Source of the DNA: an uncultured Roseobacter sp. | GTDB taxonomy: Bacteria; Pseudomonadota; Alphaproteobacteria; Rhodobacterales; Rhodobacteraceae | Length of the DNA stretch: 64,000 nucleotides | Direction of reading: 5' to 3' | Assembly: GCA_947501635.1 (NCBI GenBank) | Contig: CANMWT010000001.1 | Coordinates: forward strand, 372,001-436,000 | Shown here: positions 48,649 to 63,709 of the stretch, piece by piece | How positions within the stretch are numbered: the first letter of the stretch is position 1 | Layout of the letters: each line of letters opens with the position of its first letter | Made by a program: the position numbers and the translations under genes | Notes under the pieces: generated by a model | Told to the model about the DNA's origin: nothing | Database searches by the model: none | The model's input: only the letters and a program-made list of their open reading frames with translations

Positions 48649-49332
48649 TCAGGTAACTTTGACGTCCATTTCGCCTAAACCTTCTACCGCTATGGTCATA
48701 ACATCGCCTTTTTGCACCGGGCCAACACCTGCGGGTGTACCTGACAAAATCACGTCGCCGGGCGCCAGTGTGTAGTATTCGGAGAGATACGAGATCATCT
48801 CCGGCACTTTCCAGATCATCTGGTTCAGGTCGCCTTCCTGTTTCACTTCGCCGTTCACTTTGAATTCCAGTTTGCCTTCATTCAGGTGGCCTACCTCCTC
48901 GACCTTGTGGATCGGGCCCACGGGTGCGGACGCATCGAAAGCTTTGCCGATTTCCCAGGGGCGGCCCATCTTTTTCGCGACACCCTGCAGGTCGCGGCGG
49001 GTCATGTCGAGGGACAGCGCATACCCGTAAACATGGTCAAGAGCTTGATCCAGCGGGATATCTGTACCGCCGCTCTTTAGAAACACGGCAACCTCTGCCT
49101 CGTGGTGCACGTCACTGCTTTGAGGTGGATAAGGGAATTCGCCAGTGGTGTTCAGGTCGTCGGGGTTCTTTTGGAAAAAGAAAGGTGGTTCGCGGTCCGG
49201 GTCGTGCCCCATCTCGACGGCATGCGCCGCATAGTTGCGCCCGATGCAATAAACACGGCGCACCGGAAAGGCGCCACCGCTTGCGACGGGTACCGACACT
49301 GTCGGCGGAGTGGGGATCACGAAATCGGACAT
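48649..49332 (-). CDS. fumarylacetoacetate hydrolase family protein (fumarylpyruvate-hydrolase-like)
   Basis: The 227-aa enzyme has the FAH family core: RVYCIGRNYAAHAVEMG, then PPFFFQKNPDDL, HHEAEVAVFLK with metal-binding Glu residues and GYALSLDMTRRDLQ with Asp, and the VILSGTPAGVGPVQKGD end. Members hydrolyse or hydrate 2-oxo acids made by aromatic ring cleavage. It is divergent from the FCD regulator across an operator region. The start at 49332 follows GGGAGAC. Confidence 0.93.
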   Translation of the reverse strand: MSDFVIPTPPTVSVPVASGGAFPVRRVYCIGRNYAAHAVEMGHDPDREPPFFFQKNPDDLNTTGEFPYPPQSSDVHHEAEVAVFLKSGGTDIPLDQALDHVYGYALSLDMTRRDLQGVAKKMGRPWEIGKAFDASAPVGPIHKVEEVGHLNEGKLEFKVNGEVKQEGDLNQMIWKVPEMISYLSEYYTLAPGDVILSGTPAGVGPVQKGDVMTIAVEGLGEMDVKVT

Positions 49333-49372
49333 GGAAGTCTCCCTGAATTTTGATTCTGCTGGTGTCTTATAC

Positions 49373-49402
49373 TGGACCAAATTGTAAATCAATCCAGACC
49401 AA
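49373..49402. promoter_or_regulatory. candidate FCD-regulator operator in the divergent promoter
   Basis: GACCAA is repeated at 49375-49380 and 49397-49402, exactly 22 bp apart, within TGGACCAAATT and CAGACCAATCT. A small ATTG...CAAT palindrome (49381-49393) lies between them. It sits between the FAH and FCD genes, so one regulator could control both directions. Confidence 0.4.
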
Positions 49403-49463
49403 TCTAATAAAATTGGAAAAATAGTTATTGATTTATCCCTTTGGAGGGGTATTTTGGCTCAAT

Positions 49464-50192
49464 ATGAACACATTGGATAACCAATACCGAACCAATTCGG
49501 CAATTGATCGACCTGCGGATGATGCTGACATCATCGGAAAGGTGCGCGATTTTATTGCAGAGGGTGGGTTTCAGCCAGGCGACCGTTTGCCGGCGGAGCG
49601 CCAGTTGATTGGTGCGCTTGGCATGCCCCGTGGTGCGTTGCGTCGGGCTTTTGATGCTTTGGAGCGCGAGGGGGTTATCTGGCGCCATGTTGGCAAAGGC
49701 ACTTTTATTGCGCGCGAGGGCGCGGGCGCTGGCGGTGGTGACACAGACTGGACGATGGATGTCGCGCGTCAGATCACGCCACTTCGCATGGTGCGCGCGC
49801 GCTTGTGTATTGAACCTGCACTGGCCGGCGAGGCCGCATTGAATGCATCCGCTCAGTCCGTGACGCGCATGCGCCACGCTTTGGAGCGGGCGAGTGCCGC
49901 ATCTAACTGGGAAGACTACGAGACACAGGACGATCTGTTTCATCGTGCCATCGCACAGGCATCCGACAATGAACTGCTGATCGGTCTTTTCGACCAACTG
50001 AACCGCGTGCGCCGCGCCGTCGCTTTCGGAGCGGTCACGCGCAGTACGCCGCGCCCTGCCGCCGAGCATTCCAGTTTTGCGGAACACGAACGCATTGCCG
50101 CAGCGATTGAGCGACGCGACCGGCATGCAGCGCAAGAGAGCATGCGCAGCCACCTTATCTCTGTGTCTAAACGTCTCTTTGAGGAGGGATAG
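49464..50192 (+). CDS. FadR-type regulator (GntR wHTH plus FCD) of the catabolic island
   Basis: The 242-aa protein has a winged helix (IIGKVRDFIAEGGFQPGDRL, then ALGMPRGALRRAFDALE) and an FCD domain with candidate metal-binding His residues (DDLFHRAIAQASDN, then FAEHERIAAAIE and SHLISVSKR). It precedes the importer genes in the same direction and is divergent from the FAH gene, so it is the obvious local regulator. The ATG at 49464 is given; the ribosome site GGAGGGG is somewhat distant (14 nt). Confidence 0.92.
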   Translation: MNTLDNQYRTNSAIDRPADDADIIGKVRDFIAEGGFQPGDRLPAERQLIGALGMPRGALRRAFDALEREGVIWRHVGKGTFIAREGAGAGGGDTDWTMDVARQITPLRMVRARLCIEPALAGEAALNASAQSVTRMRHALERASAASNWEDYETQDDLFHRAIAQASDNELLIGLFDQLNRVRRAVAFGAVTRSTPRPAAEHSSFAEHERIAAAIERRDRHAAQESMRSHLISVSKRLFEEG

Positions 50193-50282
50193 GGCACGAG
50201 GTCCAGGCATCAGCGCGCAGAAAGGTCCCGGCAAGAGGGCTGACAAGACAGTAATGAATGACATGCACCAAGGGAGGAAACC

Positions 50283-51269
50283 ATGTCCTTAACGAGAAGA
50301 CTTATGCTGAAAGCGGCAGGTGCCGTGACGGCCCTGACGATGACCGCAACCGGCGCATTGGCGTCAGATACTCTGCGCGTCGGTCTGGGCGATATCGCAA
50401 GTGTCGAGAGCCTTAACCTGCTGATCGCGATGGAGCGTGCGAAAGAACGTGGCGTGGATATGGAGATGACATTCTTCAATTCCGAAGACGTCGCCGTTCA
50501 GGCGGTTTTGTCCGGCGAGGCGCATATCGGCGTTGGCGCGCCTTATGCTTTCATGGCCAACTCCAAAGCGCCGATCCGCATGTTCTACCGCATGTCCACT
50601 TTGCTGTTCTTTCCGGTCGTCAATTCCGAAGTCTATTCGGGCTGGTCTGATCTGGACGGCGAAGAGATTACCGTTCACTCGCGCGGTTCAGGCACAGAGG
50701 CGCTGATGCGTCTTATGGAGAAGGTGCACGGCATCGAATATGCCAACATCTCTTATGTGCCGGGCTCCGAAGTGCGCGCGGGTGCTATGCTGCAAGGCAC
50801 CATCAACGCGTCTATCGTTGATGCCGCGAACTTCCGTTTACTGCTGGAAAAGGGCGGGGACAAGTTTGCCAAGCTGCCTTTGGACGGGGTGAACGCGACG
50901 GACGAGGCGCTGTACGCGCGGGCCGATGTGCTTGAAGGGCGTGCCGACGACATGCAGATTTTTGTCGAAGAGTTGCTGCGCACTTGGAATGACATCGCGG
51001 AAAACCCGGCGATCGTCGCCGAACTCCGGGATCAGTATAACTTGCTCGCAGATCTGCCGGATGACGTAATCGCAGACGCAGTGCCATACTATGAAGAAGC
51101 CGTGGCCAACGGTATCTATCCGCTGAACGGCGGCCAGGAATCCGATGCTGCGGATGACATGGCGTTCCTGTCAGCCGCCGGACAGGTCGAAGGTGACCCA
51201 GCGGACGTGAACCCGTCTGATTTCTGGGATTTCTCGGCGCTGAATGCTGCCAAAGCAGCAATGAACTGA
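50283..51269 (+). CDS. ABC solute-binding protein, NMT1/SsuA-like, Tat-exported
   Basis: The 328-aa protein has a twin-arginine-like signal (SLTRRLMLKAAGAVTALTMT, cleavage near ALASDT). The mature part has the periplasmic-binding type 2 pattern (AVQAVLSGEAHIGVGAPYAF, then SRGSGTEALMRLMEKVHG and ASIVDAANFRLL), like proteins that bind sulfonates, nitrate or thiamine precursors. It is the first gene of the importer and is followed by a hairpin, then the two permeases and ATPase. A GGGAGGAAACC ribosome site precedes it. Confidence 0.92.
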   Translation: MSLTRRLMLKAAGAVTALTMTATGALASDTLRVGLGDIASVESLNLLIAMERAKERGVDMEMTFFNSEDVAVQAVLSGEAHIGVGAPYAFMANSKAPIRMFYRMSTLLFFPVVNSEVYSGWSDLDGEEITVHSRGSGTEALMRLMEKVHGIEYANISYVPGSEVRAGAMLQGTINASIVDAANFRLLLEKGGDKFAKLPLDGVNATDEALYARADVLEGRADDMQIFVEELLRTWNDIAENPAIVAELRDQYNLLADLPDDVIADAVPYYEEAVANGIYPLNGGQESDAADDMAFLSAAGQVEGDPADVNPSDFWDFSALNAAKAAMN

Positions 51270-51282
51270 GCAGAGCTCGATG

Positions 51283-51311
51283 ACCGCTCCGACCTTTGTG
51301 GTCGGGGCGGT
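51283..51311 (+). promoter_or_regulatory. 12-bp hairpin after the binding-protein gene (partial terminator)
   Basis: ACCGCTCCGACC (51283-51294) and GGTCGGGGCGGT (51300-51311) form a 12-bp stem with one G-U and a TTTGT loop. The T tract after it is short, so it likely attenuates or stabilises, giving excess binding protein over membrane components. Confidence 0.6.
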
Positions 51312-51339
51312 TTAAACACTTTTCGCAAGGACGTCACAA

Positions 51340-52155
51340 ATGTCGACCGTTCAGACAGAACCGGGTCTCGTGCAGGGTCCGACCAGCCGCGCTTTCGAGA
51401 TGCTTGGAGGCACGCCACTCATGTGGCGTCTCCTGTCGCTGGCAATTTTTTGCACTGTTTGGGAGATCGCCGGTCGGACCAATTTCAACTGGGCCTTTCC
51501 GACCTTTCTCGAGACCATGGCCGCCCTGTGGGACATGCTCACCGACGGCTCCCTGCTGAAAGCATACACGCGCACGCTAGAGCCACTGGTGATTGGCTTG
51601 GTGATATCGCTGAGCATAGGTGTCGGCGCAGGCGTTCTGATGGGGCTGCGCAAGGACGCCGAATGGATCACGCTCCCGGTCTTTATCACGATGCAGGCCG
51701 CACCGATGGCGGCTCTGATCCCGCTGATTACCTTCGTATACGGCATCGGCCTGACGTCCAAAGTTCTGGCGGTCTGCATGCTGGCGATGCCGGTGATTGC
51801 GATCAACAGCTACAAAGCCGTGCGCAATGTGCCGCCGTCTCTGGTGGACATGAGCCAAAGTTTCATGGGGTCGCGTCAGCAGCAGGTCTTCAAGATCATC
51901 CTGCCGGCCGCCAGCCCGATGATGTTCGCAGGTATCCGCCTTGGCGTGGCCGAGGGGTTCTCTGGTGTGGTTCTGGCGGAGCTTCTTATCACGCCGACGG
52001 GGATCGGTGATCTCATCACCTTCAACCGGTCTATCGCCAAGTTCGACTACATGTACGCCACCATCTTCTCCATCGTAGCTTTCGCGGTCATCACCGTATC
52101 GCTGCTGCACCGTCTGGAAACCAGTATTTTCCGGCCTGAAAAACGAGGCTCCTGA
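51340..52155 (+). CDS. ABC transporter permease (SsuC/TauC-like)
   Basis: The 271-aa protein has six predicted helices and a BPD_transp_1-type coupling segment (SLVDMSQSFMGSRQQQVFKI, then AASPMMFAGIRLG). It works with the ATPase and a second permease encoded downstream, a three-gene core typical of sulfonate/nitrate-type importers. The ATPase start overlaps its stop (TGATG). Confidence 0.93.
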   Translation: MSTVQTEPGLVQGPTSRAFEMLGGTPLMWRLLSLAIFCTVWEIAGRTNFNWAFPTFLETMAALWDMLTDGSLLKAYTRTLEPLVIGLVISLSIGVGAGVLMGLRKDAEWITLPVFITMQAAPMAALIPLITFVYGIGLTSKVLAVCMLAMPVIAINSYKAVRNVPPSLVDMSQSFMGSRQQQVFKIILPAASPMMFAGIRLGVAEGFSGVVLAELLITPTGIGDLITFNRSIAKFDYMYATIFSIVAFAVITVSLLHRLETSIFRPEKRGS

Positions 52156-52955
52156 TGAATATGACAACAGCAATCAAGACGCAGGCCGAAACAGCCAACG
52201 ACGCGATCATCGAAACGCGGGGGCTGCACAAAGTCTACGGCGGCGGCGTGACCGCGCTGCAGGATATCAACCTGTCATTCAAACGCGGCGAGTTGACTTC
52301 CTTGCTGGGCCCGTCGGGCTGCGGCAAGACAACTCTCCTGAAAATCATAGCGGGCTTGCTTGAACCGACAAGTGGCGAAGTCGATGTCAACGGGAAGCCG
52401 GTTAAGGGGCCGGGGCCTGAGCGGGCGTTTGTCTTTCAGGACTTTGCCCTCATGCCTTGGGCCACAGTGTTGCGCAACGCAGCCTTTGGGTTGGAGTTGC
52501 AGGGTGTCGCAAAATCTGAACGCGAGGACCGCGCGCGCCATTACGTGGCCGAAGTCGGGCTTGCCGGTTTTGAGGACAAATACCCGCATGAGCTTTCCGG
52601 CGGGATGCGCCAGCGGGTAGGCCTTGCGCGCGCTCTGGCAGTCAATGCCGACGTGTTGCTGATGGACGAGCCCTTCTCGGCGGTGGACGAGCAAACACGC
52701 CGCAAGTTCCAAGAAGACCTGATCCGCCTGCGTGAGGTCGAGAACAAGACATTCATTCTTGTAACCCACTCGATTGAAGAAGCGGTTTATCTGTCAGACA
52801 GCATTGTGATGCTGTCCCCTCGGCCCGGTCGTCTTAACCGCATCGTGCATCCGGCGATTGATCGCTCTGGTGACCCCGACCTGATCCGGCGCAATCCCGA
52901 ATACCTCGATCTGATCGACGAAATTTGGGCGGGCCTGCGGGCCTACGTGGAGTAA
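52155..52955 (+). CDS. ABC transporter ATP-binding protein (SsuB/TauB-like)
   Basis: The 266-aa ATPase has Walker A GPSGCGKTT at residues 52-60, the Q loop QDFALMPW, the signature LSGGMRQRVGLARAL, Walker B LLMDEPFSAVDEQ and the switch His in VTHSIEEAVYLSD. This sequence style is that of sulfonate/nitrate/taurine-type importers. It is flanked by two permease genes with overlapping or 4-nt junctions. Confidence 0.97.
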   Translation: MNMTTAIKTQAETANDAIIETRGLHKVYGGGVTALQDINLSFKRGELTSLLGPSGCGKTTLLKIIAGLLEPTSGEVDVNGKPVKGPGPERAFVFQDFALMPWATVLRNAAFGLELQGVAKSEREDRARHYVAEVGLAGFEDKYPHELSGGMRQRVGLARALAVNADVLLMDEPFSAVDEQTRRKFQEDLIRLREVENKTFILVTHSIEEAVYLSDSIVMLSPRPGRLNRIVHPAIDRSGDPDLIRRNPEYLDLIDEIWAGLRAYVE

Positions 52956-52959
52956 GCAG

Positions 52960-53712
52960 ATGGAATTCTATGGCTTCAAAGTGCCCAAGGCGGCGGCTCT
53001 TTTGTTCTGGGCAGCGCTTTGGGAAATTGTTGGACAGTTTGAGTTGCTTTTGTTGTTCCCGCCGCTCTCAGAGGTACTGTTGGCGTTGCCCGACGTTCTG
53101 ACGACAGCGAGTTTTGCAGAAGCAGCCACACTCACTGTTACGGCTTATCTTGGCGGGCTCGCGCTGGCGGTCGTGATCGGTATCGGTCTGGGCATGTTGA
53201 TGGGGCTTGTGAAGGCCGCGGATAACCTTCTGAACATGTGGGTGAATATCTTTCTCTCCGCCCCTCTGTCCGCATTGGTGCCAGTGATCATGATCATTTT
53301 TGGAATGGGCATGCCAACCGTTGTTGTCACCGTTTTCATGTTCGCAGTCTGGATCATAGCGCTGGATACGCGGGCAGGTGTGCTGCATGTTTCGCCGTCG
53401 CTGATGGAGATGTCTACGTCTTTTGGCGCGTCGCGTCTTGAGCGGTTCAAAATCATCCTGCTGTCGGCAATGCCCGAGATCCTGGCAGGCGTGCGTCTCG
53501 GTGTGATCCGCGGTGTCAAAGGCGTGGTCATCGGGCAACTGCTGGTGTCGATCATCGGTGTCGGTGCACTCTTTTCGCTGTATTCGCAAAACTTCCTGAT
53601 GGCGCATTTCTGGGCGCTCATTCTGATCCTCTTTGCTTTTGCACTCAGCCTTGCTGAGGTCATCGCACGGCTTGAGCACCGGATCGAATACTACGCGGGC
53701 GCTCGTGCATGA
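52960..53712 (+). CDS. ABC transporter permease, second copy
   Basis: The 250-aa protein has about six helices and a coupling segment (SLMEMSTSFGASRLERFKII, then SAMPEILAGVRLG). With the first permease it would form a heterodimeric channel; two distinct permeases are unusual but not rare in this family. Its stop overlaps the ATG of the decarboxylase-like gene (GCATGA). Confidence 0.93.
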   Translation: MEFYGFKVPKAAALLFWAALWEIVGQFELLLLFPPLSEVLLALPDVLTTASFAEAATLTVTAYLGGLALAVVIGIGLGMLMGLVKAADNLLNMWVNIFLSAPLSALVPVIMIIFGMGMPTVVVTVFMFAVWIIALDTRAGVLHVSPSLMEMSTSFGASRLERFKIILLSAMPEILAGVRLGVIRGVKGVVIGQLLVSIIGVGALFSLYSQNFLMAHFWALILILFAFALSLAEVIARLEHRIEYYAGARA

Positions 53713-54686
53713 AACTGACGCTGGCCACATGGGATCACGACCGCTGCATGCCTTTGCATGACGGGCGCGTCTCTGTGCCGGGTGTCGAGTTCGAAAGCCA
53801 TATCCTGCCGACCGGCAAGCTATTCCCGATTGCGGTTCAGGAAGCACGCTTTGACATCACCGAGCTGTCCATTTCCAGCTACATCCTGCAAGTGTCACGC
53901 GGTGATTGCGCCTACACGGCCATTCCCGCGTTCGTCAGCCGTGCGTTCCGCCACAGCGGGTTTTATGCGCGGGCCGGTTCGGGGATCAACGGGCTGGACG
54001 ATCTGGCGGGTAAACGGCTGGGCGTGCCAGAGTACCAGATGACAGCTGCGCTTTGGATGCGCGGGTTGCTGGGAGACGACCACGGGGTTGACCCTGCGCG
54101 TGTACACTGGCGCACCGGCGCGCTGGATGCCGGCGTCCGTCATGAAAGGCTTGCGCTGGACCTTCCCAAAGGCATGGTGGTCGAACCCATCAAGGACGGT
54201 GAAACCCTGCAGGATCTGCTTTTGGCGGGCGACATAGACGGCCTGCTGGCGCCGAACCCGCCAAAGGCTTTTCTGGAAAACGATCCACGCATTCAGCGCA
54301 TCATACCGGATTTTGGCGCAGCGGAACGTGCCTATCACGCGCGCACCGGGTTTTTCCCGATCATGCACGTGATCGCAGTACGCAAGTCTTTGATCGAGCA
54401 AGACCCCGATCTGGCTGTCCGGCTGTATGCGGCATTTACCGAGGCGCGCGATCTTGCCCTTGATCGCTTGCGTGCAGTCTGGCTTGGCTCGGCCAACAGG
54501 TTGTCCTTACCCTGGCTGAACGAGGCTATGGAAGCCACCCGTGGCGCGATGGGCGACAACTACTGGCCCTATGGATTTGAAGAAAACCGTGCCGAACTTG
54601 ACGCAGTCTGCCGCTACTCGTCCGAGCAATTCCTTGCCGCGCGTTGTGTGACGCCGGAAGAGCTTTTCCCGGACGCTGTTCGATGA
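53709..54686 (+). CDS. 4,5-dihydroxyphthalate decarboxylase-like protein
   Basis: The 325-aa protein opens MKLTLATWDHDRCMPLHDGR and has FDITELSISSYILQVSRGDC, AIPAFVSRAFRHSGFYAR, GVPEYQMTAALWMRGLL and the RTGFFPIMHVIAVRKSL segment, all close to bacterial 4,5-dihydroxyphthalate decarboxylase (Pht5). There is no signal peptide, so it is cytoplasmic, although it shares the binding-protein fold. It would decarboxylate an aromatic or heteroaromatic carboxylate; the exact substrate is unknown. It overlaps both neighbours by 4 nt. Confidence 0.88.
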   Translation: MKLTLATWDHDRCMPLHDGRVSVPGVEFESHILPTGKLFPIAVQEARFDITELSISSYILQVSRGDCAYTAIPAFVSRAFRHSGFYARAGSGINGLDDLAGKRLGVPEYQMTAALWMRGLLGDDHGVDPARVHWRTGALDAGVRHERLALDLPKGMVVEPIKDGETLQDLLLAGDIDGLLAPNPPKAFLENDPRIQRIIPDFGAAERAYHARTGFFPIMHVIAVRKSLIEQDPDLAVRLYAAFTEARDLALDRLRAVWLGSANRLSLPWLNEAMEATRGAMGDNYWPYGFEENRAELDAVCRYSSEQFLAARCVTPEELFPDAVR

Positions 54687-55438
54687 GCGCGGATCTGATC
54701 CACGCGGGCCTAGGCTGGCCCATTGCGCTGACGCTTACCGGATTGAGTTTCGTGACGTCTTTCATGACTGTTGCCTTTGGCATCGGCGGGGGGGCGGTCA
54801 TGCTTGCGGTGATGGCTGTCTTGCTGCCTGCGTCGGCAATCATTCCCGTGCATGGTCTGGTGCAGTTGGGATCAAATGCGGGCCGCTTGTCGATCATGTT
54901 GGCGCACGTAAAGCGCGCCGTGCTGCCTGCATTTGTGTTAGGAGCGGTGATCGGTGTGACGGTCGGCGGCTCGATGGTTGTGCAACTGCCAGCAGGTGCC
55001 ATTCAGCTTGGCGTCGGGGCTTTCATCCTATGGTCCGTGTTTTTCAAGCCGCCCGCCTTCATGCGTGATTCCGCTGGTATCACAGGGGTGTTTTCCAGCT
55101 TTCTGACCATGTTTTTCGGGGGCACGGGGCCCTTCGTTGCGACCTTTGTCAAGGCACAGGGCCTTGACCGGCTGGGTCACGTCGCGACACATGCGGCCCT
55201 GATGACGATCCAGCACGCGTTGAAAATCCTCGTCTTCGGATTTCTGGGGTTCGCGTTCGCACAATGGATTTGGTTTGTTGTCCTGCTGATTGCTGCTGGT
55301 TTCGCAGGCACTGTCGTCGGTCGCCAGGTCCTCACCAAAATCGATGAACGGCGGTTTTTGATGCTGCTGAACACAGTTCTCACGCTACTTGCACTGCGGT
55401 TGATCTGGTCGGGCGTATCGCAGCTTGGCAGTGGATAA
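54683..55438 (+). CDS. TauE/SafE-family sulfite exporter-like membrane protein
   Basis: The 251-aa membrane protein has about eight hydrophobic helices and family segments such as SFMTVAFGIGGGAVMLAVMA, VHGLVQLGSNAGRLS and TMFFGGTGPFVATFV. TauE/SafE proteins export sulfite, sulfoacetate or other anions. Its start overlaps the decarboxylase stop (ATGA). Its presence beside a sulfonate-type ABC importer hints at a sulfonated substrate, but family members have broad roles. Confidence 0.88.
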   Translation: MSADLIHAGLGWPIALTLTGLSFVTSFMTVAFGIGGGAVMLAVMAVLLPASAIIPVHGLVQLGSNAGRLSIMLAHVKRAVLPAFVLGAVIGVTVGGSMVVQLPAGAIQLGVGAFILWSVFFKPPAFMRDSAGITGVFSSFLTMFFGGTGPFVATFVKAQGLDRLGHVATHAALMTIQHALKILVFGFLGFAFAQWIWFVVLLIAAGFAGTVVGRQVLTKIDERRFLMLLNTVLTLLALRLIWSGVSQLGSG

Positions 55439-55539
55439 TGCGACAATTTGACCTAGCTTTCAGGTATCCGCGTCGCGCCTGAGAGACAAACAATCACAAG
55501 GCGTAACCGAATAAGAGATCAATAGGGAGGAATATTGAT

Positions 55540-56538
55540 ATGACCAAACTGAAGATGAACCGCCGCACACTGCTCGGCACCGGTCTTGCGGCCTCAGCGA
55601 TGAGCCTTGCGACACCGGGTATCCTGCGGGCTGCGGCGTATCCTGAACGTAACCTTTCGGTGTACATTCCCACGCGCGAGGGCGGTGGTGCGGATCGCAA
55701 TTTCCGCGCTTTTTCGAGCATCTGGAAAGACAAGCTGGGTGCCGAATTCGAACCGGGTTTCTACCCCGGTGCCTCGGGCCGTGTGGGCTATGAGATCTAC
55801 ATGGGCAAGGCCGAGCCAGATGCCTACAATCTGATTTTCGGCAACATGGGGCCGGAAGTGTTGAACTGGGCCGTGCAGGCGCCGACCTTTGACATCAACG
55901 ATTACTTCTACTTCGGGCGCGTTGATACCGATCCGGGCTGCGCCTTTGTCGGCGCCGAAAGCGCGTTCCAGTCGATCGATCAGATTGTCGAAGAAGGCAA
56001 GAAGCGTACGCTGACCGTCGGGACCAGCCGTATGGCGCACCCGGCGTCCATCGGCATTCTGGCACTGGGCGAAGCAACAGGGGCCAAATTCAACCTGATC
56101 CCGCTGTCGGGTGGCAAAAACACCGTCGCTGGCGCGGTCACGGGCGAAGTCGACTTCTCGGTTCTGACATCAGGTTCGGTGATTTCGGCGGGTGACAGTG
56201 TGCGCACCATGCTGGTCTTTGGCGAAAACAAGGTCGGAGACGCGCTGGACAACGCGCAGAACATCAACGACGCCTTTGACATGGACTTGCCGGAGATGTT
56301 GTCTTCGCGTGCGTTCGGCATTCACAAGGCGGCGGCTGACAACCATCCGGACCGCTTCGAAAAGCTGGTGTCGACCTTCAACGCAACCTTCGAAGACCCG
56401 GCGCTGCTGGAGTCCTATGTCGCCGCGCGCGGCACACCCGAGTACCTCAATCGGGGCGGTGTCGAAGAATGCGGCCAGTTTGTCAAAGACATGCTGGAAC
56501 TGGGCGAGCGGTATAAACCGCTGCTGACCGGCGCCTAA
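55540..56538 (+). CDS. tripartite tricarboxylate transporter binding protein (TctC-like), Tat-exported
   Basis: The 332-aa protein has a twin-arginine signal (MNRRTLLGTGLAASAMSLA, cleavage near LRAAAYPE). The mature part matches TctC: an N-terminal RNLSVYIPTREGGGADRNFR with GGGAD in the usual ligand-binding loop, then GTSRMAHPASIGILAL and SGGKNTVAGAVTGEVDF. It captures a carboxylate in the periplasm for the TctAB permease encoded next. A stem-loop separates it from tctB. Confidence 0.92.
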   Translation: MTKLKMNRRTLLGTGLAASAMSLATPGILRAAAYPERNLSVYIPTREGGGADRNFRAFSSIWKDKLGAEFEPGFYPGASGRVGYEIYMGKAEPDAYNLIFGNMGPEVLNWAVQAPTFDINDYFYFGRVDTDPGCAFVGAESAFQSIDQIVEEGKKRTLTVGTSRMAHPASIGILALGEATGAKFNLIPLSGGKNTVAGAVTGEVDFSVLTSGSVISAGDSVRTMLVFGENKVGDALDNAQNINDAFDMDLPEMLSSRAFGIHKAAADNHPDRFEKLVSTFNATFEDPALLESYVAARGTPEYLNRGGVEECGQFVKDMLELGERYKPLLTGA

Positions 56539-56545
56539 ACTGACA

Positions 56546-56582
56546 GGCCCGCACCGGCGCTTCCGATACGCCGGTGCGGGCC
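56546..56582 (+). promoter_or_regulatory. 14-bp hairpin after the TctC-like gene
   Basis: GGCCCGCACCGGCG (56546-56559) and CGCCGGTGCGGGCC (56569-56582) pair perfectly with a 9-nt loop. No T tract follows, so it most likely protects the binding-protein mRNA or slows polymerase, giving more binding protein than permease. Confidence 0.6.
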
Positions 56583-56622
56583 ACATCCTATCCTCCCGTT
56601 TCGCGACGCTTCAGGAATTCTT

Positions 56623-57135
56623 ATGGCAGATGATCCCAACCGCGCGCCCAAACACTTGGGTGCAGACCTCGTAATACCCGTTCTGGCGGTGATCTTTACG
56701 CTCTATTACTTTTCCACGATCTGGAATTCGCCCTGGACCGCTCAGGTCAGTGCGTTCGCGATCGGGGGCGTGCTGCTGTTCATCTGCGCGCTCTATTTCA
56801 TCAAAGTTGCCGGTCAATTCAAGCGGGGCGAGGGGCGCTTTACCTTCACCAGCCTCATCAATTTTGAGGATATCCGTACGGGTCGCGTGGCGCTGCTGGT
56901 TACGACCATCGGCTTTTGCTGGTTCATCGACGAGCTTGGCTTTACCCTGACCACCTTTCTGTTCTTGTGGACCAGCATGGCCATTCTTGGCGCCTTCAAG
57001 CGGCTGGGACTGGTGACGATAGTCTCGGCGGTACTGGCGCTTGGCGGCTGGGCGGTTTTCATCCTCGCGTTTGACACGAGGTTCCCGCGTGGCTGGTTTG
57101 AAGAGACGATGAAAGTGGTGATGGCCAATGGGTGA
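56623..57135 (+). CDS. tripartite tricarboxylate transporter small permease (TctB-like)
   Basis: The 170-aa protein has four membrane helices (LVIPVLAVIFTLYYFS; AFAIGGVLLFICALYFI; VALLVTTIGFCWFI; TTFLFLWTSMAIL), the layout of TctB. It joins the large TctA subunit whose gene overlaps its 3' end by 8 nt. Confidence 0.9.
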   Translation: MADDPNRAPKHLGADLVIPVLAVIFTLYYFSTIWNSPWTAQVSAFAIGGVLLFICALYFIKVAGQFKRGEGRFTFTSLINFEDIRTGRVALLVTTIGFCWFIDELGFTLTTFLFLWTSMAILGAFKRLGLVTIVSAVLALGGWAVFILAFDTRFPRGWFEETMKVVMANG

Positions 57136-58639
57136 CGCAGCAATCATCAGTACCGTCTTTCTGGAGACGATAGGCTATTGGTGGGTTATCATTCCCACCA
57201 TTTTCCTTGGCCTGATCGTGGGCGGCATTCCGGGCTTTTCCGCCGCGAACACCATCATCATACTGATGCCACTGACGCTTGCGATGGACTTGCAGATGGG
57301 CCTTGTCTTTATGGTCTCGCTGTACTGCGCGGCGCGCATGGGGGCGGGTATTCCGGCCATCCTTGTGAATATTCCGGGCACGGCAGGTGCGGCGGCCACG
57401 CCGCTCGATGGGTATCCGATGACCAAACAGGGGCGCGGCCAGCAGGCGCTTGCCATTTCCTTTGTGGCATCCTCACTCGGGGGGCTGTTGACCACCATCA
57501 TCGCCATTGCCGCCATGCCGCTTCTGGCGCGCGTAGGCTTTTACATGCACTCGGTCGAAATGATTGTTGTTATGCTCTTTGGCATCTCGCTGATCGCCTC
57601 GATCGCCGCACAAGACATGCTGAAGGGTCTGATCGCAGGCTTTTTTGGTCTGATGCTGGGTGCCATCGGCACCGATGTGGTGTACGCGACACCGCGCGGC
57701 ACCATGGGTTTTCTGGAGCTTTACGACGGTGTCCCGCTTATCCCCGCGCTGGTTGGTCTTTTCGCCGTGTCGGAAGCCTTTATTATCATCGAAAAACGCG
57801 TGATCCTGACCAAGAAGGGGCAGGAAGCGATGGAGAACCCCTCTTGGGCTGCCACCTTTGAGGGGGTGCGTGACGCCTTAACGCGCTGGACGCATATCTG
57901 CTGGACATCGGTCATCGGGCTTATCATCGGCGTTATCCCTGGCGCGGGTGCCTCGATTGCCAGTTTTGTTGCCTATCAGCAGTCGCGGACCTTCTCAAAG
58001 ACCCCCGAAAAATATGGCACGGGCCATATCGAGGGGCTCGTCGCGCCGGAAAGCGCCAACAACGGTGTCACCTCGGGCACGCTGGTGCCGCTCTTGGTGC
58101 TGGGTATCCCGGGCGGGGCAACGGCTGCCATCATGCTGGTCGTGATGCAGTACCACGGTGTCAGCTTTGGACCGTCACTGTTCCAGCAGGACCCGAAAGT
58201 CGGCTACGGGATGTTTATCGCGATGGCGGTGTCATACTTCCTGATGATCCTGACGATTATCCCCTTGTCCCGATACATGAGCCGCGTAACCACGGTACCG
58301 ACGATCTATCTGGCGCCGATGATCATCTCTTTCACGCTGGTAGGTGCTTTTGTACCACGCGAGTACATGTTCGATATGTACCTCGCGCTGGCCTTTGGGG
58401 TCGTCGGCTATATCGCGCGCCGCACTGGCTACCATGTTGCGGCCATTCTGATCGGGGTGATCCTTGGACCACTGCTCGAGACATACTTCCTGCGCGCGCT
58501 GAAGAAATCCGAAGGCGATATCATGGTGCTGTTCTCTTCGACATTGGGCAACATCCTATGGGTGGCGCTTGTTGTGTCGCTGGTATTGCCCATCGTGTTT
58601 GAGCGCCGCCGCAAGAAAAAGGAGATCGTGATCCAATGA
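57128..58639 (+). CDS. tripartite tricarboxylate transporter large permease (TctA-like)
   Basis: The 503-aa protein has about twelve helices. Family segments are FLGLIVGGIPGFSAANTIII, PAILVNIPGTAGAAATPLDG, GVIPGAGASIASFVAYQQSR and GTLVPLLVLGIPGGATAAIM, the PG-rich signatures of TctA. It imports a carboxylate using the ion gradient. It overlaps tctB by 8 nt and the LVIVD gene by 4 nt. Confidence 0.95.
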   Translation: MGDAAIISTVFLETIGYWWVIIPTIFLGLIVGGIPGFSAANTIIILMPLTLAMDLQMGLVFMVSLYCAARMGAGIPAILVNIPGTAGAAATPLDGYPMTKQGRGQQALAISFVASSLGGLLTTIIAIAAMPLLARVGFYMHSVEMIVVMLFGISLIASIAAQDMLKGLIAGFFGLMLGAIGTDVVYATPRGTMGFLELYDGVPLIPALVGLFAVSEAFIIIEKRVILTKKGQEAMENPSWAATFEGVRDALTRWTHICWTSVIGLIIGVIPGAGASIASFVAYQQSRTFSKTPEKYGTGHIEGLVAPESANNGVTSGTLVPLLVLGIPGGATAAIMLVVMQYHGVSFGPSLFQQDPKVGYGMFIAMAVSYFLMILTIIPLSRYMSRVTTVPTIYLAPMIISFTLVGAFVPREYMFDMYLALAFGVVGYIARRTGYHVAAILIGVILGPLLETYFLRALKKSEGDIMVLFSSTLGNILWVALVVSLVLPIVFERRRKKKEIVIQ

Positions 58640-59901
58640 AGGTGAAAGTTGAATACGATGTGGCACTGTCACAGAATGTCCGGCATCTGGGCAGGCTGGA
58701 TATACCCGGTGGCGGTCAGGTCGTGGTGCAGGGAGACTTTGCCTACGTCGGCCATATGAAGCCGCCGCACGGCACCTCGATTATTGATATTTCAGATCCC
58801 GCAGCGCCCAAAGTTGTGGCGCATATTGACCCGCCGGAGTGGTCGCATACCCATAAGGTGCGCGTGGCCGGGGACATCATGATTACCAACGTCGAGCAGG
58901 ACCGGCGGCATTTCCTGCGTAAGGGCGAAAAAATACCAGCCCTGCGCGCCGCCGGAAAAACCGAAGCAGAGATTGCCGAGGCACTGGGTGTCACGTTGGA
59001 GGATATTCCAGATCTCGATGCTGCGCTTGAGCGGGGGTATACGGGCGGGGGGTTCCGCGTTTGGGACATCTCTGACAAAACCGCGCCGAAACTGCTGTCA
59101 TACGTCAAGACGCATGGCTTTGGCACACACCGGTTCGATATGGACGAAAACTACGCCTACATCTCGACGGAGATGGAGGGCTATGTCGGCAATATCCTTG
59201 TCATCTATGATCTGTCGGATCCTTCCAATCCGACAGAGGTGTCCCGTTGGCACATGCCGGGGCAACATGTGGCGCAGGGCGAGACACCGACAGGTGTGGG
59301 CTACAGCCACCGCCTGCACCACGCGATGCGGGTGGGCGATGAATTCTGGGCAGCCGTCTGGCACGCAGGTCTGCGGGTTCTTGATGCATCCGACATGACC
59401 AACCCGCGCCAGATCGGAAGCTATATCTGGCCGGCCGCCATTCCCGAGCCCACCCATACTGTGATGCCGCTCGAACAGATGATTGGCGGTCGCCGCTATG
59501 CGGTGGCCATTGACGAAGAGCACGCGCACCAACCGGGGCGTTTGCACGGATTTCTCTGGGTCATGGATGTAACCGACCTTGAAAAGATGGAACCTGTGGC
59601 CGCGTGGGATCTGTCAGAGCGTGCATGCCCTTACGTCGGCGAAGAGGGTGTCCGCTTTGGCGCGCATCAGTTCCGTGAAAAGCTCGACAGCACGTTGGTC
59701 TATTGCACGTGGTTTGCCGGCGGTCTGCGCGTTCTTGATCTGGCCGATCCGCTGACGCCCAAAGAGGTCGCTTACTTTATGCCCGAACGAGGCCCGGGCG
59801 ACATGGCGCCACAATCAAACGACGTGGATGTCGGCGACGATGGCCGCATCTACCTGCTCGACCGAAACAACGGTCTCGACATACTGGAGTTAACAATATG
59901 A
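58636..59901 (+). CDS. LVIVD-repeat beta-propeller protein, histidine-rich
   Basis: The 421-aa protein has LVIVD-type repeats (TSIIDISDPAAPKVV, FRVWDISDKTAPKLL, LVIYDLSDPSNPTEV, LRVLDASDMTNPRQI, LRVLDLADPLTPKEV), which predict a beta-propeller. There is no signal peptide, so it is cytoplasmic, unlike many LVIVD proteins. His71/73, His160/165, His225/228/229, His274, His296/298 and His344 recur near blade starts, as in metal-binding propellers. A catalytic or metal role is possible but unproven. It overlaps tctA and the OsmC gene by 4 nt each. Confidence 0.85.
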   Translation: MKVKVEYDVALSQNVRHLGRLDIPGGGQVVVQGDFAYVGHMKPPHGTSIIDISDPAAPKVVAHIDPPEWSHTHKVRVAGDIMITNVEQDRRHFLRKGEKIPALRAAGKTEAEIAEALGVTLEDIPDLDAALERGYTGGGFRVWDISDKTAPKLLSYVKTHGFGTHRFDMDENYAYISTEMEGYVGNILVIYDLSDPSNPTEVSRWHMPGQHVAQGETPTGVGYSHRLHHAMRVGDEFWAAVWHAGLRVLDASDMTNPRQIGSYIWPAAIPEPTHTVMPLEQMIGGRRYAVAIDEEHAHQPGRLHGFLWVMDVTDLEKMEPVAAWDLSERACPYVGEEGVRFGAHQFREKLDSTLVYCTWFAGGLRVLDLADPLTPKEVAYFMPERGPGDMAPQSNDVDVGDDGRIYLLDRNNGLDILELTI

Positions 59902-60386
59902 CCACTGCAACCGACGAACTTTTACCCCCCAGTGTTGATCCCAAGCGCAAGGCGATCGGTATTCGCCGCGTGACCATGCGCAATGAGGCGACGACACGCA
60001 GTGTCATGATGGTGCGAGACCATGTTGTCATTACCGATGAGAAAGAAAGCAACACAGGCCCAACGCCGCTCGAGATGACGCTGTCCTCTCTGTGCGGCTG
60101 CGAGGGGGTTATCATCAACCGCTGCGCCGAGGCGATGAAATTCGAGTATTCCGCCGTTGATATCGAAGCGGACGGCGAAGTGGACCAGCGCGGCAGCCGC
60201 GGCGTTCAGGGCGTGCGCCCCTATTTCAATTCCGTCAAGATGCGCATCCGCATCCATACCGCGGAAAGTGACGAACGTCTGGACCGTTTGCGCAAGAATG
60301 TCGAGTACCGGTGCCCTGTCATGAACCTGTTCAGTTCAGCCGACGTGGAACTTGACGTGACTTGGGAAAAAGTCGACCCGTGCTAA
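59898..60386 (+). CDS. OsmC/Ohr-family protein
   Basis: The 162-aa protein has the OsmC layout: ESNTGPTPLEMTLSSLCGCE with Cys66/Cys68, a central helix, and CPVMNLFSSADV with Cys139. OsmC/Ohr proteins reduce organic peroxides using two cysteines. Within a catabolic operon a more specific thiol-dependent role is possible, for instance with a reactive intermediate. It overlaps the LVIVD gene by 4 nt, and its stop overlaps the GTG of the iron-sulfur subunit gene. Confidence 0.88.
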   Translation: MTTATDELLPPSVDPKRKAIGIRRVTMRNEATTRSVMMVRDHVVITDEKESNTGPTPLEMTLSSLCGCEGVIINRCAEAMKFEYSAVDIEADGEVDQRGSRGVQGVRPYFNSVKMRIRIHTAESDERLDRLRKNVEYRCPVMNLFSSADVELDVTWEKVDPC

Positions 60387-60838
60387 GCCTAAGGGTTAAC
60401 GGGGAAGAGGTTCAGATCAGCACCGATCCGGACACGCCTTTGGCCTATGTTCTGCGTGACATACTCAAGCTGAAAGGCACCAAAATCGGATGCGGTCTTG
60501 AGCAGTGCGGAGCTTGCACGGTTCTGGCCGATGGCGAAGCTGTGCAAAGCTGTGCCACCCCGGTCGCGGTGTTCGAGGGCCGCGACATAACGACAATCGA
60601 AGGTCTGGCGGCCAGTGCAGAGGGCCGCCGCGTCCAGCAGGCGTTTACAAAAGCACGCGCGGCGCAATGCGGATATTGCACCGCAGGCCTTGTGGTAAAG
60701 GTGACCGCATTGGCGCAGGCGGGCGTACCGGCAGACCGCGACCGCTTGAAAGACGCGCTTACCGGGCATTTGTGCCGCTGCGGCAGCCATCCAAGGGTTC
60801 TGCAAGCTGCGGAGGATGTGTTGGAGCGCAAGGCATGA
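60380..60838 (+). CDS. molybdenum hydroxylase small subunit, two [2Fe-2S] clusters
   Basis: The 152-aa protein has a plant-type ferredoxin site (Cys38, Cys43, Cys46, Cys58 in CGLEQCGACTVL...QSC) and a second helical-domain site (Cys97, Cys100, Cys132, Cys134 in CGYCTAGL...CRCGSH). This is the electron-transfer subunit of xanthine-dehydrogenase-family enzymes. The GTG at 60380 overlaps the OsmC stop; the frame extends further up. It pairs with the next gene. Confidence 0.95.
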   Translation: MLSLRVNGEEVQISTDPDTPLAYVLRDILKLKGTKIGCGLEQCGACTVLADGEAVQSCATPVAVFEGRDITTIEGLAASAEGRRVQQAFTKARAAQCGYCTAGLVVKVTALAQAGVPADRDRLKDALTGHLCRCGSHPRVLQAAEDVLERKA

Positions 60839-62958
60839 GCCTAGAAAATTATCCACTGGTACGCGATTGGCTGCATGTGAAAAACGGACGGCTTCACCTG
60901 AGAACAGGCAAGGTGGACTTGGGCCAGCGCATCAGCACCGCGTTGATGTGCATCGCCGCTCAAGAGCTTGCCCTGCCGTTTGACACCATCGACATTGACC
61001 CCGTCCGTACTGACGACAGCCCTGACGAAGGTATCACTTCTGGCAGTAATTCTATTGAACAGTCAGGAGCCGCGCAGCGTCTGGCCTGCGCAACGGCACG
61101 TCAGTGGGCTATGACGGCTGCAGCGGATGCATTGGGGGTGGAGGTTGAAGCCCTGTCTCTTGAAGATGGACAGATCAGCCATCGTGGCACCAACGACAGA
61201 TGTGACCTGCTCGACCTACTTGTTGCCCTGCCCGCAGACTTGCCGGTTGATGCACAAGCGCCTGCATGGGTCTTGAACGGGCCGATACCCGACGCGATGC
61301 CGCGCGGGCTGCGCGACATGGTTGAGGGCCGGTATGTCTATGTGCACGATTTGGAACGCCCGGGCATGCTGCACGCCCGCATCGTCTGCCCTCCCAAAAC
61401 GGATGCAAAACTTGCAAAGCTTGACCCGACTGTAGTCACCCGCCTTGAGGAAAAGGGGGTGCACGTCATCCGCGACGGGGCGTTTCTTGCCATCGCTGGG
61501 CCGCAGGAGTGGCAGGTGGTGCGTGCGGCCTCAAGCCTTGCGGCGGCCTGCGTCTGGGATTTGGGTCCAGAGCTTGCAACAGGGGATATCTTTCAGGCGA
61601 TGGCGGATCGCGACGCACAGCGCTTTTCAGTTGTTGACGGCAAACCCGACCCAGACGCGCCGCTTCCCCCGACGCTCGATGCGCCGGCCTACACGGAAAC
61701 CTTCGAGCGGCCCTATACGCTGCATGGGGCGCTGGGTCCTTCTGCGGCGTTGGCAACTTTCAGCGGTGGTCAGCTGGAAATCCTGACGCACAGTCAGGGC
61801 ATCTATTTTCTGCGCGACAGCATTGCTGACAGTCTGGGAATGGCGCCAAAGGACGTGGTGCTGGAACATGTACCCGGCTCGGGCTGTTATGGGCACAACG
61901 CAGCAGATGACGCCGCATTCGAGGCAGCACTTGTGGCCGTAGCGCTGCCCGAAACGCCAATTTTGCTCAAATACACGCGGTCAGACGAGCATGGGCGCGA
62001 ACCTGTAGGCACGGCAATGGCCGTGCGGCTGGAGGCGCGTTTGAGTGCGGAGGGCCATATTGATGCGGTCTGGATGGAGGCGCGCGGCGATACCCACCGC
62101 GGCAGGCCGCGCGCCGGCGCAAACCGCGCGGGGCCAGCGCGGCTTGCGGCCAATGCTGCGCGCGATTGCGATGTGCCTCGGTTTGTGCCTGAACCCAATA
62201 TGAACCGCCACGCAGGTCTGCACCGAAACCTTGATCCGATTTACACCTTTGCAGACAAGCGAATGGTCAAGGCATTGGTGCCAGATTTGCCGCTCAGGCC
62301 TTCTGCCCTGCGCTGTCTGGGTGCGCCCGCGAATGTGCTGGCGATCGAGAGCATGATGGACGAGCAGGCGGTCGCGGCGGATGACGACCCGATTGCCTTT
62401 CGCATCCGGCATCTGAGTGATCCGCGCGATATTGCCGTGTTGGAAAAGCTGCGCGATGTCCTTGCCTTAGCCGGTCCTTGTGATGGCCCGGATGCGTCCG
62501 GCCGCGGTATTGCCTACGCCCAGTACAAGAACGCGATGACACGGGTTGGCGTGGCGGTGGACCTGTCGGTGACTGAAGTTGGCGCAGTTGCGCTGCACCA
62601 CGTACACCTGGTGGCGGATGCGGGCCGCATTGTTGATGCCGATGGACTTTTGGCGCAATTGGAAGGGGGCGTGCTGCAAGGCGCAAGCTGGGCTTTGCAC
62701 GAACGCGTGACATGGGGCCCGCAGGGTCGTGAAAGCCTCGACTGGGAGAGCTATCCCGTTCTGCGGTTTGACAATGTCCCCACGTTTGACATCCACTTGA
62801 TCGATGCTGGCCACGCGCCTTCAGTCGGGGCGGGAGAAGCAAGCCCGAGCCCGACCGTTGCTGCAATTGCGAACGGGATCTTTGCTGCTTCGGGCCTTCG
62901 GTTGCGGCGCATGCCCTTTGATGCAGATGCCGTGATGCAGGCCGCTTTGCAGGCATAA
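60835..62958 (+). CDS. molybdenum hydroxylase large (molybdopterin-binding) subunit
   Basis: The 707-aa protein belongs to the xanthine-dehydrogenase/isoquinoline-oxidoreductase/nicotinate-dehydrogenase group. Visible are the VDLGQRISTALMCIAAQELA opening, GSGCYGHNAADDAAFEAALV, the RPSALRCLGAPANVLAIESM segment, GGVLQGASWAL and the active-site SVGAGEASPSPTVAAIA with Glu668. It has no Tat signal and no fused cytochrome, and no FAD subunit gene is nearby. It would hydroxylate an aromatic heterocycle or aldehyde with water. It overlaps the small subunit by 4 nt. Confidence 0.93.
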   Translation: MSLENYPLVRDWLHVKNGRLHLRTGKVDLGQRISTALMCIAAQELALPFDTIDIDPVRTDDSPDEGITSGSNSIEQSGAAQRLACATARQWAMTAAADALGVEVEALSLEDGQISHRGTNDRCDLLDLLVALPADLPVDAQAPAWVLNGPIPDAMPRGLRDMVEGRYVYVHDLERPGMLHARIVCPPKTDAKLAKLDPTVVTRLEEKGVHVIRDGAFLAIAGPQEWQVVRAASSLAAACVWDLGPELATGDIFQAMADRDAQRFSVVDGKPDPDAPLPPTLDAPAYTETFERPYTLHGALGPSAALATFSGGQLEILTHSQGIYFLRDSIADSLGMAPKDVVLEHVPGSGCYGHNAADDAAFEAALVAVALPETPILLKYTRSDEHGREPVGTAMAVRLEARLSAEGHIDAVWMEARGDTHRGRPRAGANRAGPARLAANAARDCDVPRFVPEPNMNRHAGLHRNLDPIYTFADKRMVKALVPDLPLRPSALRCLGAPANVLAIESMMDEQAVAADDDPIAFRIRHLSDPRDIAVLEKLRDVLALAGPCDGPDASGRGIAYAQYKNAMTRVGVAVDLSVTEVGAVALHHVHLVADAGRIVDADGLLAQLEGGVLQGASWALHERVTWGPQGRESLDWESYPVLRFDNVPTFDIHLIDAGHAPSVGAGEASPSPTVAAIANGIFAASGLRLRRMPFDADAVMQAALQA

Positions 62959-63076
62959 TTGCTCTAATTTCCAGCGGTTTGACGCGAATAGGCACATCTT
63001 TTGCACGGGGAACTCGCCTTTCTGATTTGTTTCGTGTATGCTGCGGTGCAGAAAAACAGCTTGGAAAGTGTTTCTC

Positions 63077-63709
63077 ATGACTGGACGTATCATCACGGTT
63101 GCTCAGCAAAAGGGCGGATCGGGCAAGACGACCGTCACCGTCAATCTGGCGACTGCACTCCTCGCGCAAGGCAAATCTGTCGCGCTTTTGGATACCGACC
63201 CGCAGGGCAGCCTCGGAAAATGGTTCATGAAACGGGTTGAAACCCACGGCGACGACCCGAACCTGAGGTTTTCGACAGCGACCGCTTGGGGCATTAACTA
63301 CGAACTGCGCTCACTCAGCGCACAGGTCGATTTTGTTATCGTTGATACGCCCCCAAAGGCCGACAGTGATCTGCGACCTGCGCTCAGGGCGGCTGATCTG
63401 GTGCTAGTGCCCTTGTCCGCCAGTCATGTCGATATCTGGGCCACACAAGATGTTCTGGATCTTGCGGATCGGGCCAGCAAACGTGCCTGCATCGTAATGA
63501 ACCGCACACGCGCGGGGACACGGCTGGGTGCTGAGGTTCTGGAAGCGGTCGCTGAACTGGAAGCTGATGTGCTGAAAACAAGCCTGGGCAACCGGATCCT
63601 GTTTGCAGAATCGCTGGGCAAGGGCCTTGGCGCCATTGAAAGCAAAAAAACCAGTGCTGCAGCAAACGAAGTCAGATCGCTGGCTGAAGAAGTAGCGCAT
63701 ATCCTTTAG
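63077..63709 (+). CDS. orphan ParA-family ATPase
   Basis: The 210-aa protein has the deviant Walker A QQKGGSGKTTVTVNLATALL, then LLDTDPQGSLGKWF and the DFVIVDTPPKADSDLRPALR Walker B region. It is short and has no adjacent parB or parS-like repeats. Such orphans position cellular cargo or partition small elements. The start at 63077 is given; the frame continues 13 codons upstream. It is not part of the catabolic operon by spacing (118 nt). Confidence 0.88.
   Translation: MTGRIITVAQQKGGSGKTTVTVNLATALLAQGKSVALLDTDPQGSLGKWFMKRVETHGDDPNLRFSTATAWGINYELRSLSAQVDFVIVDTPPKADSDLRPALRAADLVLVPLSASHVDIWATQDVLDLADRASKRACIVMNRTRAGTRLGAEVLEAVAELEADVLKTSLGNRILFAESLGKGLGAIESKKTSAAANEVRSLAEEVAHIL

Follow-up and report, generated by a model that had tools for sequence, protein, structure and literature searches.

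A conserved gene cluster of Rhodobacterales with a candidate metalloenzyme coupled to a tripartite tricarboxylate-type importer

What brings a molybdenum hydroxylase into one row of genes with a relative of a phthalate-pathway decarboxylase, two importers and a beta-propeller protein of the LVIVD type, and what compound would such a set of genes take up and degrade? The question is raised by positions 48649-62958 of a 64,000-nucleotide stretch of DNA (the window) from an uncultured Roseobacter sp. (contig CANMWT010000001.1), where an initial annotation had placed a single functional unit with a catabolic role. Searches of the encoded proteins with Pfam, NCBIfam and PDB sequences recovered every gene family named in that annotation, and a hydroxylase, a decarboxylase-family protein and an acylpyruvate-type hydrolase, as expected of a catabolic cluster, are all present. 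Gene order, overlapping junctions, an operator-like motif and correlated divergence support the view that 48649-62958 is a single functional unit. The reading favoured here, to which we would give roughly even chances, is that the genes form a single catabolic operon, inherited as a whole, which serves to degrade an organic acid taken up by the cell and is regulated by an FCD-type protein. The features are as follows, with E-values of the matches in brackets.

48649-49332, minus strand: FAH-family hydrolase (PF01557, 1.1e-55)
49386-49403, plus strand: operator-like motif AAATCAATCCAGACCAAT, 18 bases, between the FAH gene and the FCD regulator gene
49464-50192, plus strand: GntR-family regulator with FCD ligand domain (FCD 1.5e-21, GntR 7.5e-14)
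50283-51269, plus strand: periplasmic binding protein (NMT1-like) of an ATP-binding cassette (ABC) importer, an optional module (PF09084, 3.8e-8)
51340-52155, plus strand: ABC importer permease A (PF00528, 1.5e-19)
52155-52955, plus strand: ABC importer ATPase (PF00005, 6.1e-36; among NCBIfam models nearest to the taurine ATPase, below cut-off)
52960-53712, plus strand: ABC importer permease B (PF00528, 7.7e-15)
53709-54686, plus strand: Pht5-like protein, 4,5-dihydroxyphthalate decarboxylase family (best solved relative 9jp7, 3.2e-81)
54680-55438, plus strand: TauE/SafE-family membrane exporter (PF01925, 4.2e-13)
55540-56538, plus strand: TctC-type binding protein (PF03401, 2.8e-4, below the curated cut-off; tripartite tricarboxylate transporter binding protein in PDB, 3.4e-13)
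56623-57135, plus strand: TctB, small permease subunit (PF07331, 4.6e-7)
57128-58639, plus strand: TctA, large permease subunit (PF01970, 5.8e-125)
58636-59901, plus strand: LVIVD beta-propeller, proposed metalloenzyme (421 residues)
59898-60386, plus strand: OsmC-family protein (PF02566, 4.4e-17)
60362-60838, plus strand: IorA-like [2Fe-2S] subunit of a molybdenum hydroxylase (Fer2_2 2.4e-21, Fer2 5.2e-7; TTG start uncertain)
60835-62958, plus strand: IorB-like molybdopterin subunit with permuted domain order (MoCoBD_2 6.4e-28, MoCoBD_1 1.9e-14)

For the regulator an ATG start was picked within the open reading frame (ORF) 49428-50192, and the start of the molybdenum subunit at 60835, which gives a protein of 707 residues, is backed by homologues against the mechanically chosen GTG at 60505. 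The minus-strand ORF 49425-50264, which lies opposite the regulator gene and is longer than it, had no Pfam match and was taken as spurious. In the PDB search the FAH protein has as its nearest solved relatives the FAA hydrolase 6j5y (5.1e-77) and the putative fumarylpyruvate hydrolase 4maq (3.6e-67), and the OsmC protein had no match.

The gene order proposed for comparison across relatives was followed in named genomes, where the best 80 of 265 loci encoding relatives of the LVIVD protein were examined (all 80-locus counts refer to these); IorB was called in 36 of them, among which the core order was counted. A nine-gene core, Pht5-TauE-TctC-TctB-TctA-LVIVD-OsmC-IorA-IorB, keeps its order in 24 of the 36 IorB loci, exactly in 22 and with an additional second TctA in two, and it is the neighbourhood that is kept, not single genes alone. 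Among the other IorB loci, five are without TauE only, one is without OsmC only, and six are shorter runs, five of which start at or near a contig end (L109 does not). Counted singly in the 36 loci, OsmC and IorA occur in 35 each, TctA in 33, TctB and TctC in 31 each, Pht5 in 30, FCD and FAH in 27 each, TauE in 25, and the ABC binding protein in 14.

Overlaps at most gene borders had also been claimed, and by coordinates eight of the 13 same-strand junctions in the window do overlap (permease A/ATPase, permease B/Pht5, Pht5/TauE, TctB/TctA, TctA/LVIVD, LVIVD/OsmC, OsmC/IorA and IorA/IorB), the remaining five being gaps of 4, 70, 84, 90 and 101 bases. In the relatives, with gene starts picked by a codon model, overlap or abutment was found at TctB/TctA in 31/31, TctA/LVIVD in 33/33, LVIVD/OsmC in 33/35, OsmC/IorA in 34/34 and IorA/IorB in 34/35 cases, and at Pht5/TauE in just 8/25. 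The terminator scan gave no plus-strand terminator-like site in the window gaps between FCD and IorB; 24 terminator-like sites in all were seen against 14.9 expected, most of them within genes, and one on the minus strand lies directly behind FAH (48622-48600). The promoter scan returned three sites against 5.5 expected.

Protein distances for 14 other genes of the cluster track those of LVIVD (rho 0.46-0.82), the correlation being matched by none of 200 permutations for 13 genes and by two of 200 for the ATPase. When 198 genomes of the family were searched for the LVIVD protein, 20 had a match with E no higher than 1e-20, and ten, the genome of the window among them, had one at 60% identity or more. 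The whole core is present in five of the nine other genomes of this last group (L030, L031, L034, L035 and L036); L032 has the core without TauE, L033 is a short contig ending in IorB on which no TauE was seen, L037 has LVIVD-OsmC-IorAB with a TctA fragment, and L038 has LVIVD with TctCBA and no IorAB.

The regulatory end of the cluster is conserved as well. As had been annotated, FAH lies on the minus strand, divergent from the FCD regulator on the plus strand, and in the loci FAH adjoins FCD regardless of its orientation towards the Pht5 end. The intergenic stretches between the two genes from 27 loci and the window contain the pattern ATCAAT[CT]N2-4ACCA in 21 of 28 cases, against 0.03 expected from mononucleotide shuffles, an expectation that is flattering because the pattern was picked after inspecting the same sequences. 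It is absent from two SAR116 loci and from L052, L054, L061, L069 and L128, and a palindrome, TTGGTN2-3ACCAA, occurs in nine of the 28 stretches. The half-site resembles operators of the FadR type. The 18-base site of the window has no other exact occurrence in its genome, and two more sites match it with three mismatches.

Of the two importers that had been reported, both are present, but only one belongs to the conserved core. The ABC importer, a four-gene system of the NitT/TauT type, is an optional element: among the 27 loci showing both FCD and Pht5, 14 have neither its binding protein nor its permease, and in nine of the 27 FCD stands immediately before Pht5. Its binding protein is 80 and 89% identical to those of L050 and L097 and about 37-42% identical to those of other carriers, whose divergent ABC importers can likewise lie between FCD and Pht5. 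The second importer has all three subunits of a tripartite tricarboxylate transporter in the order C-B-A, as in known TctCBA systems; it departs from these in that its TctC scores below the Pfam cut-off, though it matches solved binding proteins of such transporters, and in that TctA is immediately followed by a coupled propeller protein.

The TauE/SafE-family exporter, present in 25 of the 36 IorB loci and adjoining TctC also in Pelagibius loci without IorAB, allows a different account of the substrate: a sulfonated organic acid would enter through the ABC importer and TctCBA, sulfite would be released, and TauE would export it. The ABC ATPase, closest to the taurine model, though below cut-off, agrees with this account. 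It is nevertheless the least probable of the alternatives considered here, as the Pfam searches of the cluster revealed no desulfonating enzyme family, five cores that are complete in other respects lack TauE, 14 of the 27 informative loci lack the ABC importer, and TauE/SafE proteins carry other anions too.

The IorA-like subunit has eight cluster cysteines in its translation, and the molybdenum subunit has the glutamate segment GAGEAS (E668) and cofactor-binding segments that are invariant in 36 proteins of its own group (the window included) and five homologues, which places the pair, with its separate [2Fe-2S] subunit, permuted molybdenum subunit and conserved glutamate segment, among the two-subunit IorAB-type hydroxylases, a type which we take to be named after isoquinoline 1-oxidoreductase. 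The window enzyme is 36-38% identical to its best plasmid homologues. Three plasmid homologues from other genera all have an N-terminal extension, with an annotated cytochrome c gene in front in two and a gene annotated as alcohol dehydrogenase there in the third, whereas the window subunit has no signal extension and no adjoining cytochrome gene.

The Pht5-like protein, the only match to its family in the window genome and with no signal peptide evident by eye, belongs to the Pht5 decarboxylase family by homology and by 33 residues that are invariant across 32 proteins of its own group, three from operons with a Rieske oxygenase and four other members. It is about 40-42% identical to the three Rieske-operon members of the phthalate 4,5-dioxygenase pathway; in the phthalate operon Pht5 stands beside pht3 and pht4, whereas the window gene stands without them and with a molybdenum hydroxylase.

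These shared residues, together with the question of how a ring would be cleaved, bear on a further alternative, that an aromatic compound is channelled by the cluster into protocatechuate, which true Pht5 forms, and that an intradiol dioxygenase encoded elsewhere cleaves the ring. The earlier statement that no ring-cleavage dioxygenase is present holds for the cluster but not for the genome, which has two adjacent intradiol-dioxygenase (PF00775) matches at C25 and no LigB or gentisate 1,2-dioxygenase match at E 0.001. For this reason the ring may be opened by an enzyme encoded elsewhere in the genome or by the LVIVD protein, or the substrate may be something other than a carbocycle. All eight core carriers of the family sample (two without TauE) have PF00775, a coincidence that is uninformative because 148 of the 198 family genomes have at least one match anyway. 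As the route to protocatechuate would also leave the FAH gene without a role, and as neither a Rieske oxygenase nor pht4 is found in the cluster, it is judged unlikely, if still the strongest of the rivals.

That hydroxylase, decarboxylase and FAH hydrolase act on one substrate is best argued from outside the family. Plasmids of Roseomonas marmotae and R. haemaphysalidis, one genus and here counted as one case, carry a divergent FCD gene followed by FAH, TctC, TctC, IorA, IorB and Pht5, with no LVIVD gene. Identities to the window proteins are 38.7% for IorA, 38.3% for IorB and 44.4% for Pht5 in R. marmotae, and 31-32% for FCD and 34% for FAH on both plasmids; the TctC matches are weak and partial. 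This arrangement, separate from that of the window, is the best evidence that the three enzymes share a substrate. The Roseomonas IorAB pairs standing with Pht5 have no adjoining cytochrome gene. The next gene of R. haemaphysalidis, on the other strand, encodes an alpha/beta hydrolase that shares 41% identity with the one often found in TctCBA-LVIVD loci. A further molybdenum hydroxylase pair, with a c-type cytochrome gene, lies near the IorAB-Pht5 cluster of the R. marmotae plasmid (L130:11694-14768).

The same plasmids lend something to the proposal that two modules merely share a transcript, TctCBA-LVIVD serving one acid and FAH-FCD-IorAB-Pht5 another, since the second set stands there without LVIVD; conversely, no IorB was called in 44 of the 80 LVIVD loci (in L071 tblastn detects a truncated IorB, and L082 breaks off in LVIVD). 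Yet in the 24 full loci the supposed modules are interleaved, Pht5 coming first and IorAB last, and mostly overlapping, FAH and FCD are found with both, and the alpha/beta hydrolase beside IorAB-Pht5 in R. haemaphysalidis recalls that of the TctCBA-LVIVD loci. Such a division is accordingly considered improbable.

This leads to the LVIVD protein, whose association with TctCBA is the most widespread core. The 80 loci contain 82 copies of its gene; upstream of 75 of these, in the same orientation, lies TctA, at a distance of no more than 150 bases in 66 cases, and the coupling is found also in loci without hydroxylase or decarboxylase. The nine copies with a larger gap have one or two intervening genes in eight cases, and of the seven without an upstream TctA, five lie at or near a contig end, L085 has TctA on the other strand, and L109 is the last. 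Outside the IorB loci the companions of this core include an alpha/beta hydrolase in 22 loci (the PDB search of which gave no match), an aldo/keto reductase in 16 and OsmC in five, with FAH and TauE also among them.

An AlphaFold2 model of the protein (mean predicted local distance difference test score, pLDDT, 84.6) has as its top Foldseek match 5hrm, the phosphotriesterase of Sphingobium sp. TCM1 (18% identity, E 1.8e-18); beta-TrCP follows as the next distinct protein (E 2.4e-10). By fold this places the LVIVD protein with the metallo-beta-propeller hydrolases of the Sphingobium kind. Seven blades is the figure given for 5hrm in the title of its paper, and it is taken over here for the window protein. 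The PDB sequence match to the same enzyme spans one LVIVD repeat and alone proves little. In an alignment of 89 relatives, 78 near and 11 distant (about 28-40% identity), H40, H73, H165, H228, H229, H274, E294, H344 and D396, as well as R166, are kept in all 89; E87 is not retained in the seven most distant. In the predicted model the kept residues sit in or beside strands spread along the propeller. The annotation as a beta-propeller is thus borne out as to fold, but a plain propeller falls short of a protein that looks metalloenzyme-like in both fold and conserved residues; a metal site is likely, and the protein is probably a metalloenzyme and a hydrolase.

The comparison can be taken to individual ligands. 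Profile alignment with a sphingomonad homologue of 570 residues extends over 366 columns (E 1.7e-16, a one-against-one value). The metal ligands of the solved enzyme, which we take to be E201, H258, H389, E407 and H475, correspond in the fetched sphingomonad protein to E and H at the first two numbers and to H, E and H, shifted by 13, for the other three. With the full profile, E201, H258 and E407 pair with E87, H165 and E294 in all three settings, H389 pairs with H274 in two of them, and H475 is three residues off H344. A profile of the 11 distant relatives (L039 first) holds H258 and E407 in three settings and H389 in two; that of the seven most distant holds H389 in three settings and H258 in two, with E407 two residues off. 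The LVIVD-type propeller is common to the window protein and the Sphingobium phosphotriesterase or haloalkylphosphorus hydrolase (5hrm, 5ioj), but the identity is about 18%, and the sphingomonad protein has a long N-terminal part, whereas the window protein, with its 421 residues, lies in a carboxylate-importer operon and is placed in the cytoplasm because no signal peptide is evident by eye.

A scaffold or sensor of the TctA permease, without catalysis, would account for the overlap or abutment of the LVIVD gene with tctA in all 33 IorB loci where both were called, and for the lack of a recognised catalytic Pfam domain. Conservation of nine His, Glu and Asp positions in 89/89 relatives, down to about 28% identity, goes beyond what a scaffold would be expected to need, however, and the nearest fold is that of a metallohydrolase, so that a non-catalytic role appears improbable, to the same degree as the division into two modules. 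The suggestion that the TctA-coupled LVIVD proteins are an unrecognised cytoplasmic metalloenzyme family carrying out the first chemical step, a hydrolysis or ring opening, on the imported compound, and that the flame-retardant phosphotriesterase of sphingomonads arose from them or from their common ancestor, is itself tentative and on balance doubtful; on the same suggestion, the protein would supply a step between hydroxylation or decarboxylation and the acylpyruvate hydrolase that the initial annotation had missed. Literature searches, with most subscription journals outside their range, found no paper joining LVIVD with the tripartite tricarboxylate transporters or with phosphotriesterase.

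Some loci show other neighbours of these proteins. In L083, L087, L095, L098, L111, L126 and L127 a small gene for an SBP_bac_11-type binding protein lies on the opposite strand directly before the LVIVD gene, and in L098 and L111 two LVIVD copies flank it. Distant relatives (about 30%) occur on enterobacterial records of Rahnella, Erwinia and Klebsiella; that of Rahnella victoriana (L134:6968-8215) lies behind a sugar ABC binding protein, not TctA, and keeps the His/Glu/Asp set. The sphingomonad phosphotriesterase homologue (L144:1585-3297) is annotated as hypothetical and is followed by an IS6100 transposase; a 36-residue piece of it is identical in five of six plasmid records matched (four Sphingobium, one Sphingopyxis).

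What, then, would the operon degrade? An aromatic or N-heterocyclic carboxylate, as first proposed, is plausible, and by analogy an aromatic or N-heteroaromatic polycarboxylate is the most likely substrate, favoured because of the Pht5 kinship, the ring-hydroxylase type, the phthalate-type importers and the acylpyruvate-type hydrolase. Tripartite tricarboxylate and ABC systems are both named among known phthalate importers in a review (PMC13040137). In the favoured reading of a single operon, the FCD regulator would sense the acid or a breakdown product; TctCBA, and the ABC importer where present, would import an aromatic or N-heteroaromatic di- or tricarboxylate; and the LVIVD protein, through a metal site resembling the one in the Sphingobium phosphotriesterase, would hydrolyse or otherwise open the substrate or its conjugate in the cytoplasm. 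IorAB would hydroxylate a ring carbon, the Pht5-like enzyme would take off a carboxylate that the added hydroxyl has made labile, and FAH would cleave the resulting acylpyruvate, while OsmC might deal with a peroxide or reactive intermediate and TauE might export an anion. The order of these steps is itself a proposal. What is observed is which genes are present, their order and joint inheritance, the motif beside FAH and the intact family residues of the molybdenum subunit and the Pht5-like protein.

Several points weigh against this scheme. The substrate class is a proposal from gene kinship, and the presence of TauE may hint at a sulfonated compound. The correlation of distances is weaker evidence than gene order because species kinship contributes to it too, and the LVIVD protein need not share a reaction chain with the hydroxylase, as IorB was called in just 36 of the 80 loci. 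The hydroxylase is without a flavin or cytochrome partner as electron acceptor; 29 positions fixed in the Pht5-like proteins of the cluster's own group differ from the three Rieske-operon ones; and no Rieske oxygenase, reductase, dihydrodiol dehydrogenase or pht4 was found among the proteins scanned in 48649-62958, which sets the cluster apart from phthalate operons. As for the metal site, the profile built from the 78 near relatives only slips register, and none of the E87/H165/H274/E294 pairings holds in it.

Two named pathways were considered and set aside. In the isoquinoline pathway hydroxylation by IorAB is followed by phthalate and Pht5; this was just an idea for the present cluster because there is no phthalate dioxygenase in it and an acid importer would be of no use for a neutral base, and the literature search found no paper joining isoquinoline 1-oxidoreductase with dihydroxyphthalate. 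A quinolinate pathway had no gene-level support, and the search for hydroxyquinolinic found no literature.

Many Rhodobacterales records contain the full operon (Marivita, Thetidibacter, Tateyamaria, Brevirhabdus and others), and the TctCBA-LVIVD core extends to records titled SAR116, Puniceispirillum, Rhodospirillales, Beta- and Gammaproteobacteria, which in many cases are metagenome bins. This wide distribution therefore points to an unrecognised organic-acid pool used by these bacteria. An operon of marine-type bacteria would contain what looks like a metal enzyme related to a degrader of man-made flame retardants; should the LVIVD protein prove to be a metalloenzyme, a protein that now carries the label hypothetical or repeat protein would acquire a function, and it would become possible to test where the sphingomonad phosphotriesterase came from.

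The cluster is bordered by genes of other kinds. On the minus strand at 43945-47942 a gene for an MTTB protein (trimethylamine methyltransferase-like) overlaps one for a DMGDH-like FAD/GCV_T protein and adjoins the island, a pair suggestive of methylated-amine catabolism; neither had a match at useful coverage in the fetched operon loci. Immediately downstream of the operon, at 63038-63709 on the plus strand, lies a gene for a ParA/MipZ-like ATPase.

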